Assembly (NCBI GenBank): GCA_020445645.1
Contig: JAGRGG010000007.1
Coordinates: 1-32,575 of the forward strand
Length of the DNA stretch: 32,575 nt
Direction: 5' to 3'
Origin: Geminicoccaceae bacterium
Lineage (GTDB): Bacteria > Pseudomonadota > Alphaproteobacteria > Geminicoccales > Geminicoccaceae
The first letter of the stretch is position 1. Every line of letters starts with the position of its first letter. The translations under genes were made by a program, and so were the position numbers. The notes under the pieces were generated by a model. That model saw only the letters and a list, made by a program, of their open reading frames with translations, was not told the origin of the DNA and ran no database searches. Of this stretch, positions 5,670 to 24,667 are shown piece after piece.

Positions 5670-5718
5670 GTCGTCTCCTTTTTCGTCCGGGCAGGTTTAA
5701 GCCAGAAGGAGAACCGTC

Positions 5719-5762
5719 GAAAGACGACGCTTCGCGTCCGCTGGCGCGGGGCGTCGTCTTTC
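5719..5762. repeat. Stop-codon-associated hairpin repeat with extended arms (copy A1)
   Basis: The core is ACGCTTCGCG (5727-5736), loop TCCGCTGG, then CGCGGGGCGT (5745-5754). It pairs over ten positions with two G-U wobbles when read as plus-strand RNA. Outer arms GAAAGACG (5719-5726) and CGTCTTTC (5755-5762) extend it to an 18-bp stem that enters the stop codon of the caspase-like gene (5761-5763). It can act as a transcript end or RNA-stability hairpin for that gene; this role is inferred. Confidence 0.75.
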
Positions 5763-19533: not shown

Positions 19534-20952
19534 ATGCGCAACGCCTTCCTGATGACCACGGCCGTGGCCCTGACCCTGGCGGTCACGCCGGTCAGCGCCC
19601 AGCAGTTCGCCGATACGCCGGACCAGATCAACCAGATGGTCCAGCAGATCGAGCAGGGCGGCGATCAGGCCTTCTCGAAGGTCGAGCAGGCGCTGACGGA
19701 CCTGCAAAAGGAGATGCAGGGCGCGCAGGTCCCGCAGACCGCGCAACAGAAGCTCGACACGGCGATGCAGGCGGTCAAGGACAAGGACCAGCAGAAGGCC
19801 GTCACCAGCCTGCGCGATCTGGGCAAGGAGATCGACGTCGTCGTCCAGGCGCAGGGCACGCAGGGCCAGAACCAGGACCAGATGGCCCAGAACGCGCAGG
19901 GCCAGGACCAGCAGGACGGCGGGCAGGCGGCGCAGCTCGAAGTCAAGCAGCCCGCCCCTAATGTCCAGGTCGAGCAGCAGCAGCCGCAGGTCGACGTGAA
20001 GCAGCAGGACCCGAACGTCAACGTGCAGGTGCCGGAGCCCAACGTCACGGTCACGCAGCCGAAGCCGCAGGTCGACGTGACGGTCAGGGTGCCGAAGCCG
20101 CAGGTCGAGGTGCAGCAGGCCCAGCCCAACGTCCAGGTCGAGCAGCAGCAGCCGCAGGTCGACGTGAAGGTCCCGGAGCCGAACGTCACCGTCCAGCAGC
20201 CGAAGCCCGAGGTCAACGTCGTCCAGGAAGGCCAGCCCAACGTCCAGGTCGAGCAGGCGAAGCCTGAGGTCTCGGTCGAGCAGGCCAAGCCGAAGGTCAC
20301 GGTCGACCAGTCCGACCCGCAGGTGAACGTGAAGCAGGCGGGCGGCGACAACCCCGCCAACGTGGATGTCAACGTTCAGCAGGGCCAGGACGGCCAGCAG
20401 GCGCAGGACAGCGGGCAGCAGGGCCAGAGCGACCAGCAGACCACGGTCGTGGACCAGGAAAAGCAGCCGGTGCAGGGCTCGGCGGCGACCGAAAACCAGC
20501 AGCCGGCGACCGGCACGACGAACGACCAGTCCGACATGAACGCCACCACCGTCGGCGCCGCCGCCACCGGGGCCGGCGCCGCCGGGATGACCCCGCTCGT
20601 CGACGAGCCCAGCTACCGCTCCTACAACAACGAGGCCGCCGACATGCGGCAGGGCATACAGCTCGACAACGGCTTCAGGGCCGAGGACCTGATCGGCCAG
20701 ACGGTCTACGGCTCGAACGGCGAGAACGTCGGCGAGATCTCGGACCTGCTCGTCGGCTCCAGCAAGCAGGCGCAGCGCGTCGTCATCGACGTCGGCGGGT
20801 TCCTCGGCTTCGGTGAGCGCACGGTGGCCTTGAACATGCGCGATCTCAGCAACGGCCAGAAGGGCCTCCAGGTCGACATGACCGAGGACCAGTTGAAGCA
20901 GCTGCCGCGCTACCGGGAAGAGGAAGGCGTCTACACGCCCTACCAGGAGTAG
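19534..20952 (+). CDS. Exported PRC-barrel protein with PxVxV repeat array
   Basis: A 472-residue secreted protein. The signal peptide covers 1-22 (cleavage after PVSA). A helical Gln-rich segment runs about 23-130. At about 135-270 there are some 14 copies of an 8-11-residue unit of form xPxVxVxQ (PNVQVEQ, PQVDVKQ, PNVTVTQ, PEVNV), alternating charged or Gln and valine as in a repetitive beta structure. A Gln-rich linker follows. A PRC-barrel lies at about 379-460 (GQTVYGSNGENVGEI, then VVIDVGGFLGFGERTVAL). Similar PRC-barrel proteins with such arrays occur in other alphaproteobacteria; their function is not established. It is monocistronic, closed by a strong hairpin. Envelope or stress roles are guesses. 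Confidence 0.88.
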   Translation: MRNAFLMTTAVALTLAVTPVSAQQFADTPDQINQMVQQIEQGGDQAFSKVEQALTDLQKEMQGAQVPQTAQQKLDTAMQAVKDKDQQKAVTSLRDLGKEIDVVVQAQGTQGQNQDQMAQNAQGQDQQDGGQAAQLEVKQPAPNVQVEQQQPQVDVKQQDPNVNVQVPEPNVTVTQPKPQVDVTVRVPKPQVEVQQAQPNVQVEQQQPQVDVKVPEPNVTVQQPKPEVNVVQEGQPNVQVEQAKPEVSVEQAKPKVTVDQSDPQVNVKQAGGDNPANVDVNVQQGQDGQQAQDSGQQGQSDQQTTVVDQEKQPVQGSAATENQQPATGTTNDQSDMNATTVGAAATGAGAAGMTPLVDEPSYRSYNNEAADMRQGIQLDNGFRAEDLIGQTVYGSNGENVGEISDLLVGSSKQAQRVVIDVGGFLGFGERTVALNMRDLSNGQKGLQVDMTEDQLKQLPRYREEEGVYTPYQE

Positions 20953-21093: not shown

Positions 21094-22278
21094 TTGCCCG
21101 CAACCGACCTGCCGTTCGCGCGCGACGAGTACGCAGCGCGGCTGGCGAAGACCAAGATGGCCATGCAGACGGCCGGGGTCGACCTGCTCTGGATCACCGA
21201 TCCCTCCAACATGGCGTGGCTGACCGGCTACGACGGCTGGTCGTTCTACGTCCATCAGGGCGTGCTCCTGCCGCTGGAGGAGGAGCCGGTCTGGTGGGGC
21301 CGTACCCAGGACGCGAACGGGGCCGTGCGGACGGTGTGGATGGCGGACGCCCGGGTGGAGTGCTACCCGGACACGCTGGTGCAGAACCCGCAACGGCACC
21401 CGATGGCGCACCTCGCGGGGCTGATCCGGGACCGGGGCTGGGGCGGGCGGCGGATCGGGGTCGAACTCGACAACTACTACTTCTCGGCCAAGGCCTGCCT
21501 CACCCTCCAGGAAGGGCTGCCCGACGCCCGCTTTTCCGACGCGACGGGGCTCGTCAACTGGCAACGCATCGTGAAGTCGCCGGCCGAGATCGGCTACATG
21601 CGAAAAGCGGCTAAAATTACCGAGGCGATGCACGCGATGATCAGGGAGCGGGTCGGGCCGGGGGTGCGGAAGTGCGACCTCGCCGCCGAGATCTACAAGG
21701 TCGGCATCGCGGGCACGGAGGACTACGGCGGCGACTACCCGGCGATCGTGCCGCTGCTCCCGACCGGCAGCGACGCCGCCGCCCCCCACCTCACCTGGGA
21801 CGACAGGCCGTTCGCCGTGGGGGCGGCGACCTTCTTCGAGGTCGCGGGCTGCCACAGACGCTACCACTGCCCGCTCTCGCGCACGGTCCACCTGGGCGCC
21901 CCGCCCGCCCACATCGTCGAGGCGGAAAAGGCGCTCGTCGAGGGCCTGGCGGACGGGATCGAGGCGGCGCGGCCGGGCAATCGCACGGAGGACGTGGCGG
22001 CGGCGCTGGCGAAGGCGCTGAAGAAAATCGGCATCGAGCGCGAGCCCCGCTGCGGCTACCCGATCGGCCTCAGCTACCCGCCCGACTGGGGCGAGCGCAC
22101 CGCGAGCTTCCGGGCGGGCGATCGAACCGAGCTTCGCCCCGGCATGACGTTCCACTTCATGCCGGGCCTTTGGATGAAGGACTGGGGGATCGAGATCACC
22201 GAGAGCATCCTGATCAAGGACGACGGGCCGGCGGAGACGTTCTGCCAGGTGCCGCCGGGCATCCTTGTCAAGGAGTAG
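21094..22278 (+). CDS. doeA: Ectoine hydrolase DoeA (M24/creatinase-like fold)
   Basis: A 394-residue protein of the pita-bread fold. The N-terminal domain has LLWITDPSNMAWLTGYDGWSFY-like sequence and the C-terminal domain holds FFEVAGCHRRYHCPLSRTV, which I recognise as typical of ectoine hydrolases (DoeA/EutD). At sites where metallopeptidases have Asp, Asp and His ligands this protein has Glu, His/Cys and Tyr (GYPIGLSYPPDWGE), so it is probably metal-free like creatinase. DoeA opens ectoine to N-acetyl-diaminobutyrate as the first catabolic step. The TTG start (21094-21096) has GGGGAGAG upstream. The usual DoeB deacetylase is not adjacent; an ArgE-type enzyme is. Confidence 0.8.
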   Translation: MPATDLPFARDEYAARLAKTKMAMQTAGVDLLWITDPSNMAWLTGYDGWSFYVHQGVLLPLEEEPVWWGRTQDANGAVRTVWMADARVECYPDTLVQNPQRHPMAHLAGLIRDRGWGGRRIGVELDNYYFSAKACLTLQEGLPDARFSDATGLVNWQRIVKSPAEIGYMRKAAKITEAMHAMIRERVGPGVRKCDLAAEIYKVGIAGTEDYGGDYPAIVPLLPTGSDAAAPHLTWDDRPFAVGAATFFEVAGCHRRYHCPLSRTVHLGAPPAHIVEAEKALVEGLADGIEAARPGNRTEDVAAALAKALKKIGIEREPRCGYPIGLSYPPDWGERTASFRAGDRTELRPGMTFHFMPGLWMKDWGIEITESILIKDDGPAETFCQVPPGILVKE

Positions 22279-22284
22279 AAGGTT

Positions 22285-22310
22285 ACGCTTCGCGTCCGCT
22301 GCGCGGGGCT
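22285..22310 (+). repeat. Stop-codon repeat head, left end of composite element (copy A3)
   Basis: ACGCTTCGCGTCCGCTGCGC, then GGGGCT. This is the repeat core with one loop base missing. It begins six bases after the doeA stop. Its left flank AGAAGGTT is shared with the copy at 23574-23619. A pyrimidine tract (CCCTTTTTTCTTTTT) follows. Confidence 0.75.
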
Positions 22311-22330
22311 TCCCTTTTTTCTTTTTGTCC

Positions 22331-22374
22331 GTTGTCCGAGCTTGGCACGGGCGCCCGTGCCAAGCTCGGACAAC
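22331..22374. repeat. Perfect 44-bp palindrome between doeA and the deacetylase gene
   Basis: The left 22 bases (starting GTTGTCCGAGCTTGG) are exactly the reverse complement of the right 22 (ending CCAAGCTCGGACAAC), with no spacer. T-rich sequence precedes and A-rich sequence follows, so an RNA hairpin could continue outwards past 60 bp of mostly paired sequence. The U-run lies on the 5' side in both directions, so this is not a standard intrinsic terminator. Confidence 0.95.
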
Positions 22375-22400
22375 AGATAAAAAAGAAGAAGAAAGGCCGT

Positions 22401-22421
22401 GTGCAGCGCCACGCGAAGCGT
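22401..22421 (-). repeat. Inverted repeat head, right end of composite element
   Basis: On the minus strand this begins ACGCTTCGCGTGGCGCTGCA, matching the first eleven bases of the left head exactly and the rest loosely. It is followed (minus strand) by a CTTTCTTCTTC tract. It ends four bases before the downstream ATG, covering where a ribosome site would lie. Confidence 0.65.
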
Positions 22422-22425
22422 GCAT

Positions 22426-23583
22426 ATGACGGACATCCGCCGCGCGATCGGCCTGTTGCGCGACCTCGTCGCCTTTCCCTCGCTGAGCCGGACGACGACG
22501 CTGCCGATCGCGGGCTACGTCGGGGCCTGCCTCGACGCCTGCGGCGTGCCCTGGTGCCTCGACGGGGACGGGGGGCAGGCGAACCTGTTCGCCACGATCG
22601 GCCCCGAGGTCGACGGCGGGGTGGTGCTGTCGGGGCATTTCGACGTGGTGCCGGCGGGGGATGAAGGCTGGGGCGGCGACCCGTTCGTGCTGCGCGAGGC
22701 GGAGGGGCGGCTGATCGGGCGGGGCGCCGTCGACATGAAGGGCTTCCTCGCCTGCTGCCTTGCGATGGTTCCCGTCTGGGCGAAGGGCCGGCTGCGGCGG
22801 CCGGTCCACCTCGCATTCACCCACGACGAGGAGGTGGGCAGCTTCGGCGCCGCGCGGCTGCCGGGGTTCCTGGCCGGGCGGCCGTTCAGGCCGGGCATCG
22901 CCGTCGTCGGCGAGCCGACGGGGATGCGGCCCATCGTCGGCCACAAGGCGGGGTTTGAACTGATCACGACGGTGACGGGGCTCGCGGGCCACGCCGCGAC
23001 GCCAAGCCGCGGCCTCAACGCGGTCTACTACGCGGGCCGCCTCGTCGCGCACATCGAGGCGACGGCGGCGCGGCTGGCGGCGGCGCCGCGCGACGGGTCG
23101 CCGTTCGACCCGCCCTATTCCACCTTGAGCGTCGGGCGGATCGAGGGCGGGATCGCCCGCAACGTCATCCCGGACACGTGCCGGATCGTCTGGGAAGTCC
23201 GGCCCCTGCCCGAGGACGACGGGGGCGCGATCGTCGCGGGGATCGAGGGCTTCGCAAGGGACACGCTCCTGCCGGAGATGCAAGCACGCCACCCCGAAGC
23301 CGGCCTCGCCTTCGTCCAGGAGGCGCACTTCCCCGGCCTCGCCGCCCGCCCCCGCTCCAAGGCGGCGGACTTGGTGCGGCGCCTTTGGACGGACGCGCCG
23401 GGAGAGGTCGTCTCGTTCGGCACCGATGGCGGCCACCTGCAGGCGGCCGGGCTCGACACCGTCGTTTTCGGGCCGGGCTCGATCCGGCAGGCGCACACCC
23501 CGGACGAGTACGTCGAGGTCGCGGCGCTGGAGGACTGCCTCGCCTTTCTCGACCGGCTTGGGCGCTGGCTCGAAGAAGGTTGA
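22426..23583 (+). CDS. M20-family N-acyl amino acid deacetylase (ArgE-like)
   Basis: A 385-residue cytosolic zinc hydrolase. Metal-ligand motifs are GHFDVVP (His71, Asp73), GRGAVDMKG (Asp103) and HDEEVG (Glu135/136). The dimerisation domain starts near GHKAGFELIT, and the spacing matches acetylornithine deacetylase ArgE. It removes an acetyl group from an alpha-N-acetyl amino acid, classically N-acetylornithine. Beside doeA, the close analogue N-alpha-acetyl-diaminobutyrate is a plausible substrate, which is inference. The ATG at 22426 gives the family N-terminus but has no clear ribosome site. An in-frame GTG at 22399 has AGAAAGG upstream and would add nine residues. Confidence 0.82.
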   Translation: MTDIRRAIGLLRDLVAFPSLSRTTTLPIAGYVGACLDACGVPWCLDGDGGQANLFATIGPEVDGGVVLSGHFDVVPAGDEGWGGDPFVLREAEGRLIGRGAVDMKGFLACCLAMVPVWAKGRLRRPVHLAFTHDEEVGSFGAARLPGFLAGRPFRPGIAVVGEPTGMRPIVGHKAGFELITTVTGLAGHAATPSRGLNAVYYAGRLVAHIEATAARLAAAPRDGSPFDPPYSTLSVGRIEGGIARNVIPDTCRIVWEVRPLPEDDGGAIVAGIEGFARDTLLPEMQARHPEAGLAFVQEAHFPGLAARPRSKAADLVRRLWTDAPGEVVSFGTDGGHLQAAGLDTVVFGPGSIRQAHTPDEYVEVAALEDCLAFLDRLGRWLEEG

Positions 23584-23619
23584 ACGCTTCGCGTCCGCTG
23601 GCGCGGGGCGTAACCTTCT
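23574..23619. repeat. Stop-codon repeat hairpin between convergent genes (copy A2)
   Basis: The core ACGCTTCGCG (23584-23593), loop TCCGCTGG and CGCGGGGCGT (23602-23611) is identical to the copy at 5727-5754. Outer arms AGAAGGTT (23574-23581) and AACCTTCT (23612-23619) extend the stem with a GA bulge. The arms include the stop codons of both the deacetylase and the carbonic anhydrase genes, so it can serve as a bidirectional 3' end. Confidence 0.85.
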
Positions 23620-24667
23620 ACTTCAGCACCAGCGCCCGCCCGTTGAGCGGCTGCACGGGCCTTGCGTTGTGGTTCGGCATGATGGCGGCGAGACCGGCGA
23701 GGGTGTTGGTGGCGGCCTTGATCGGGGACTTCATTACGTGCCACGCGACGCCCTCGCTGCAGGGCGGGGTCGTGAGCGAGCCGACGTAGCGATAGTCGTC
23801 GCGGTCGGCGGGCAGGAGGCGGCGGGGGTCGATCGTCACCTCGGCGACGGTGCGCACGCCTTCGGCGCGGGGGGCGTGGCGGAGCACGAGGTCGAGGGTG
23901 TCGTCGGCGGCGGCGCCGTTCTCGACCATGACGCCGACGACGGCGAGCTGGCCGTGCGCGTTCTCGTGGACGAGGTGGACTTCCATCGGCGCCGCGCGGC
24001 CGTCGATCAGGTGCTCGCTCGGGGCGTGGAGGTGGAACTGGCGCAGTTCGTAGCGGGTGCCGGCGATCTCGATCCAGTTGCCGGCGGGCACGTCGGCCTG
24101 GATGGTGTGGCCGTTGTTGCGCAGCTTGAGCGGCACCGGCTGATAATAGAAGGCGATGGCGGGCAGGAGGTCGGTCGTCTCGGCGCGGGTGAGGTCGATC
24201 GGCGACTGCTTCCTGCCGGCGGCGCAGGCGCCGAAGGCGGGGTCGAGGCCGCCCCATTCCTCGGGTCCGCCTCGACCGGCGTAGGCCCAATGCGGGGGTT
24301 GGTCGCCGTGGTGCTCCTCGGCCTTCGCCGGGGCGGGGCCGTGGCCGTCCCCGGCGGGCCCGCCGTGCGCGACGGGGGCGAGCATCGGGCGGGGCGGGAG
24401 CGGCCGGGCGGGGGCGGTCGCCGCCGTGGGCAGGGCGGCGAGGTCGCCGGGCGATGCCGCCGGCGCCGACGGGACGGGAACGAGCGCCACGCGTTGCGGG
24501 GCGCCGCCTTCCGCCGGAACGAGGGCGTAGGCGGGGGCCTTGAAGACGTGTTCCGGCGGGGCCGGGCGGGTGAATTCGGCCCAGGCGGCGTCGGTGGCGC
24601 GCAAGGTGCTGCCGCAGCCGGAGAGGAGGGGCAATGCCAGGAGGGCGGCGAGGCCGGATCGCGTCAT
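23618..24667 (-). CDS. Alpha-type carbonic anhydrase, predicted lipoprotein
   Basis: A 349-residue exported protein. The lipobox LLSGC with Cys18 suggests lipid anchoring. Residues about 25-120 are a Pro/Ala/His-rich linker. The alpha-carbonic anhydrase domain follows from about 125: KQSPIDL, NNGHTIQ (His187, proton-shuttle position), zinc ligands His212 and His214 in QFHLHAPSEH, and His231 in EVHLVHEN, then LTTPPCSEGV. All catalytic residues are present, so it should hydrate CO2 in the periplasm or at the envelope. The long linker is unusual and may let the domain reach across the periplasm. It is convergent with the deacetylase gene, with 34 bases between stops. Confidence 0.92.
   Translation of the reverse strand: MTRSGLAALLALPLLSGCGSTLRATDAAWAEFTRPAPPEHVFKAPAYALVPAEGGAPQRVALVPVPSAPAASPGDLAALPTAATAPARPLPPRPMLAPVAHGGPAGDGHGPAPAKAEEHHGDQPPHWAYAGRGGPEEWGGLDPAFGACAAGRKQSPIDLTRAETTDLLPAIAFYYQPVPLKLRNNGHTIQADVPAGNWIEIAGTRYELRQFHLHAPSEHLIDGRAAPMEVHLVHENAHGQLAVVGVMVENGAAADDTLDLVLRHAPRAEGVRTVAEVTIDPRRLLPADRDDYRYVGSLTTPPCSEGVAWHVMKSPIKAATNTLAGLAAIMPNHNARPVQPLNGRALVLK

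Follow-up and report, generated by a model that had tools for sequence, protein, structure and literature searches.

A high-copy intergenic repeat with terminator-like hairpins facing a palindromic core in a Geminicoccaceae bacterium

Introduction

The ERIC or IRU sequences are largely palindromic intergenic repeats of enterobacteria, and ERIC is not known to be built of terminator halves that face each other. One report mentions an intergenic repeat unit of 127 bp (PMC2759123). REP sequences are short hairpins found in hundreds of intergenic copies, some of them near stop codons, and they frequently pair up, in inverted orientation, as dimers around a structured spacer (PMC3733652, PMC12306157). 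Spacers with complementary ends are known among the REP dimers (PMC3733652), and Escherichia coli REPs situated no more than 15 nt from a stop codon have been reported to down-regulate translation (PMC12306157). In Neisseria and Pasteurellaceae, repeated terminators are built from DNA uptake signals, so that one repeated motif supplies terminators at many places (PMC1852404). Finally, template switching has been documented to create and repair hairpin stems (PMC8794818), and in this quasipalindrome correction a single event renders both arms of an inverted repeat identical (PMC8794818, PMC7202029).

Here we describe a composite inverted element from a Geminicoccaceae bacterium. The element is similar to ERIC (about 127 bp) in being of comparable size, largely palindromic and intergenic, the comparison being one of descriptions. 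With the uptake-signal terminators it shares a repeated motif placed at terminator positions, but here the motif, which we call the head, is itself a hairpin and nearly all of its copies are intergenic. As judged from sequence comparison, the element belongs to a REP-like, lineage-specific family of intergenic repeats present in high copy number.

The element in the doeA-argE gap

The window, i.e., the whole analysed stretch of 32,575 nt (GCA_020445645.1, contig JAGRGG010000007.1), contains on its + strand doeA for ectoine hydrolase (21094-22278; NCBIfam TIGR02993, above cut-off) followed by an argE-like gene of the acetylornithine deacetylase family (22426-23583; NCBIfam). Across the gap between them, a head is followed by a pyrimidine tract, the palindrome, a purine tract and an inverted head, just as the original prediction described it. 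The left head (22285-22309, + strand) lies 6 nt past the doeA stop codon and forms a terminator-like hairpin, GCTTCGCGT-CCGCT-GCGCGGGGC, with its stem at 22287-22309. It is followed on the same strand by a T-rich pyrimidine tract (22310-22326), the U-tract of the predicted terminator. The core at 22331-22374 proved on checking to be an exact palindrome of 44 bp, spacer-free and centred on GGCGCC, the second-longest palindrome of the window being 20 bp. On the - strand, the purine tract (22375-22395) is the T-rich tract of the opposite-strand terminator, and the inverted right head (22396-22421) is degraded in this copy. An independent terminator scan called the left head hairpin at 22287-22309; no - strand terminator was called by the same scan in the right head.

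The RNA fold of 22270-22435 has an energy of -104.8 kcal/mol versus -56.3 +/- 4.2 kcal/mol for dinucleotide shuffles (z -11.4). Nearly all 147 bases of the gap had been expected to fold into one hairpin. The long hairpin stands, but its paired part is confined to 22285-22421, which self-pairs almost end to end into approximately 137 nt; the outer arms, 56 nt each, are approximately 80% complementary and the right head is degraded. In the relative G008, which belongs to a different genus (protein identity 51-65%), there is no element at this junction and the doeA TGA overlaps the argE GTG by 4 nt (GTGA). The element thus opens, in the window genome, a junction that is closed in G008.

Forms, copy number and lineage range

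The window harbors several other forms of the repeat. A second, more diverged composite (1775-1950) lies between two - strand genes, and a diverged half element on the - strand (631-669) consists of a head and a pyrimidine tract. Solo heads are found at 5716-5762 (hairpin at 5727, approximately 20 bp, outer AAAGACG/CGTCTTT) and at 23576-23620 (hairpin at 23584), the latter between convergent gene ends. Four forms of the head were seen in a 711-kb sample of the genome: the solo hairpin, the short inverted pair (28-46 bp), the half element with its pyrimidine tract, and the composite of approximately 118-163 bp. This sample contains 17 composite places, and since it was drawn mostly from contigs on which copies had already been found, the copy density is a biased estimate. 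The core palindromes between facing heads are roughly 44-75 bp. At the centre, most copies are asymmetric over a short stretch of a few bases and a minority are perfect (62, 68, 68, 72, 74, 134 and 138 bp besides the window copy), so a perfect centre is a state reached by some copies rather than a defining feature. A separate observation in the window concerns repeats with a 27-bp period at 19914-20358, within a gene (19534-20952) whose protein had no NCBIfam match.

In the window organism's genome (G000), the composite search found at least about 40 places (40 of the 427 candidates scored), and a strict head-to-head pattern gave 25 full composites versus none in the control. The head alone matched 366 times with one mismatch (0 in the control) and 583 times with two (39 in the reversed control). 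The absence of any related composite elsewhere, named beforehand as evidence against the original prediction, is therefore not what was found, with at least about 40 composites and several hundred heads. It had also been reasoned that the palindrome should be either recent or selected; the answer given here is a large family in the genome, of which the window copy is no one-off.

One of 39 other genomes had a match in the composite search, and a weak one. In 30 genomes of the same family the head was absent except for three single near matches. The comparison genomes are all from outside the genus of the window organism, and "lineage-specific" hence means genus level or below. A 33-base head query had no match in GTDB contigs, and a 23-base match there, located only inside a Prevotellaceae coding region, was dismissed as chance. 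No copy of the repeat was found in viral contigs. Rfam gave nothing above the gathering score, and the sub-threshold matches were mostly microRNA-precursor models on a generic long hairpin. The family appears to be a real repeat element, found so far only in the lineage of this bacterium.

Position relative to genes

Among 128 heads, 113 lie in intergenic DNA, though the intergenic share of the sample is 10.4%. With genes called by a simple codon-usage script instead of a standard gene finder, 59 of these 113 begin -1 to 9 nt past a same-strand stop codon, compared to 3.1% expected for random intergenic positions. What the copies have in common is a position just past the stop codon that ends the preceding gene. 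The 31 composites are found between tandem (16), convergent (4) and divergent (6) genes, with 5 arrangements undetermined. It had been suggested that the hairpin could sequester translation initiation downstream. As a general role this is not supported: an ATG four bases away is peculiar to the window copy, the distance to the start of the downstream gene is 13 to 269 nt in the other tandem copies, and six copies lie between divergent genes. Translation sequestration fits the window copy at most.

The preference for stop codons raises the question of whether the repeat is a classical REP acting on mRNA. Hairpins past the stop would then stall ribosomes, protect the 3' end or be cut by RNase III, and the facing pair would be a REP dimer with a structured spacer. 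The repeat agrees with REPs in consisting of 20-40 bp intergenic palindromes in high copy number (113 of 128 heads lie between genes, and the copies number in the hundreds). Half of the heads are in the stop-proximal position, the T-tract is missing in solo and short forms, and the published effect of stop-proximal REPs on translation and the complementary spacer ends of REP dimers count for this reading as well. The composites, however, carry a long T-tract 3' of the inward hairpin on both strands, which would be needless for a stall signal. They also differ from REPs in having a stem of 9-10 bp with conserved G.U pairs before the T-tract, and a copy-specific core palindrome. The constant GTAG or CGTC tetranucleotide is missing as well: what precedes the 113 heads is mixed (GACG 8, GGAC 8, GATC 7, GTAG 4, CGTC 2). 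No RAYT flanked by the head was found in the genome, which is 95.8% complete; it has two Y1_Tnp genes, one of them at a contig end, and the head is in the examined flanks of neither. Stop-proximal REP action on translation or mRNA is nonetheless a serious rival, though we consider it the less probable account.

A candidate RAYT link was also discarded at the level of single genes, as the Y1 gene on contig C60 has no head nearby and the RAYT-like gene on C78 has its own, unrelated repeat. This different repeat (locus L086), GGGGACACAATACGAA and variants of it, surrounds the RAYT-like gene.

Dispersed copies, terminal inverted repeats and the junction closed in G008 would also suit a MITE or another non-autonomous transposon, with the heads as terminal inverted repeats and a transposase spreading the element in trans. 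Direct flank identity of 2-12 bp, as expected of target-site duplications, is nevertheless at the level of shuffles, the heads strongly favor the post-stop position, and neither of the two Y1 transposase genes, found in a search covering the PF01797 family only, has a head nearby. We regard such an origin as improbable. Because there is no constant tag, no linked RAYT and no target-site duplication, the repeat is not filed under either REP or MITE.

Still less probable, to a degree that makes it hard to uphold, is a signal of the DNA-uptake type, two of which would make a terminator in the manner known from Neisseria and Pasteurellaceae. The short motif does resemble that precedent (PMC1852404) in having hundreds of copies, often arranged in inverted pairs at terminator positions, but almost all copies here are intergenic (113 of 128), and the 583 loose head matches compare with roughly 1,000 or more uptake signals given in the same report.

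The heads as putative terminators

The head is a hairpin of 9-10 bp with conserved G.U pairs. Read from the outside inwards it is GCUUCGCGUC-CGCU-GGCGCGGGGC, with three G.U pairs, and in composites a tract like CUUUUUUCUCUUUUUU comes next. The inward reading is more stable than its reverse complement in 59 of 62 composite heads (mean -14.9 versus -10.0 kcal/mol), and the 12 nt after the inward hairpins of composites contain approximately 8 T. A G+C-rich hairpin with a T-tract directly after it on the transcribed strand, the hallmark of intrinsic terminators, is thus present in the left unit of the window copy and in the inward hairpins of the composites. Since the head folds better inwards and a T-tract follows, it looks like an intrinsic terminator, and a composite accordingly resembles a pair of terminators that point towards each other, with a palindromic core in between.

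Transcripts arriving from either side would end in the T-tract, and RNA reading through would fold to a single hairpin of approximately 137 nt, a possible RNase III substrate. In the window, doeA transcripts would end at the left unit, its right counterpart being degraded. The element would work like a repeated, bidirectional terminator, termination being predicted, and two terminators facing each other around a palindrome could insulate neighboring genes both ways. As a whole, a repeat of facing terminators whose arms are corrected at the DNA level is the best explanation, one that we consider fairly probable. Against it stand the many intergenic heads, in solo and short forms, that have no long T-tract, and T-tract termination can therefore not be the only role of the head. 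For the six composites between divergent genes, a terminator for the neighboring gene makes little sense. The closed junction in G008, which is in favor of the explanation, comes from a different genus. At the window locus a terminator would lie 4 nt ahead of the argE start and a sigma-70-type promoter scan found no argE promoter; expression of argE, by read-through or from an unseen promoter, is left unexplained by the terminator reading.

Two further ideas were set aside. The stronger terminator is not on the stop-proximal side, as there was no difference between the sides. A fold of the head into two mini-hairpins (1-11 and 12-23) showed a degree of covariation, but for the most part the 10-bp stem can pair as well, and the short forms complicate the test; covariation therefore does not settle the head fold.

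Similarity of the two arms

The two arms of a composite resemble each other more than they resemble the arms of other copies. Arm identity is 85.9% within a copy and 76.4 +/- 0.8% when arms are swapped between copies, and the excess declines from the core (z 10.3) through the tract (z 6.9) to the head (z 4.0). The same non-consensus base is found in both arms in 196 cases versus 82 expected. Mismatches between the arms, taken in transcript orientation, are G.U in 61 and A.C in 57 cases overall, and 20 and 18 in the core. In three copies (L013, L024 and L043) the palindrome runs 6-8 bp beyond the head into the flanks (P 0.001).

Since the arms of one copy are alike and G.U is not in excess over A.C, we infer correction of the arms at the DNA level, probably by template switching: one arm would correct the other, most simply during replication. 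Compared to the described quasipalindrome events, in which a single event makes the arms identical, correction is here deduced from pattern alone, in dozens of copies that belong to a single natural family of repeats. The arms could instead be kept alike by selection on a long RNA hairpin through compensatory changes. The very stable fold and the strong covariation of the arms would agree with that, but wobble intermediates would predict more G.U than A.C, and palindromes reaching into unique flanks, as they do in a few copies, are not expected from it. We consider RNA-level selection unlikely, somewhat more so than REP action. The parity of G.U and A.C could also reflect selection for symmetry of the DNA, or a number of mismatches that is too small. 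With dozens of copies, arm-to-arm correction of a palindrome can be told apart from compensation at the RNA level, a distinction usually debated on the basis of RNA genes.

On the reading of DNA-level correction, it may be, as a tentative proposal, that long palindromes with little or no spacer persist in dozens of copies while their arms are continually rewritten by template switching in replication, which would make the family a natural, replicated record of this process, and this in a genome in which SbcC was not found. SbcC had no match in the window organism's genome and SbcD a weak one, below the cut-off. Since the same weak SbcD match is found in most relatives without the repeat, the SbcC/SbcD state is at most a permissive factor.

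Assembly of the repeat copies

Palindromes of this kind might be thought to arise in assembly. Copies on contigs C18 (L112) and C19 (L113) do fold back as mirror images through their flanks near contig ends, and heads are frequent at the ends of contigs. Both of these mirror-image copies are probably fold-back artefacts, and the 134-bp perfect palindrome on C19 is suspect. In the window copy, however, the outer arms differ (approximately 80% complementary) and different genes lie on the two sides, so this copy is probably sound. With distinct flanks at dozens of other copies in addition, an artefact as the source of the element is hardly credible. N gaps occupy the centre of two copies, and in several contigs the sequence stops or is interrupted by N gaps within a copy. 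Many G000 contigs, among them C3, C10, C40, C63, C69 and C104, start within a few bases of a head, and the repeat, which breaks short-read assemblies of this genome, thus probably explains part of its fragmentation into 291 contigs.
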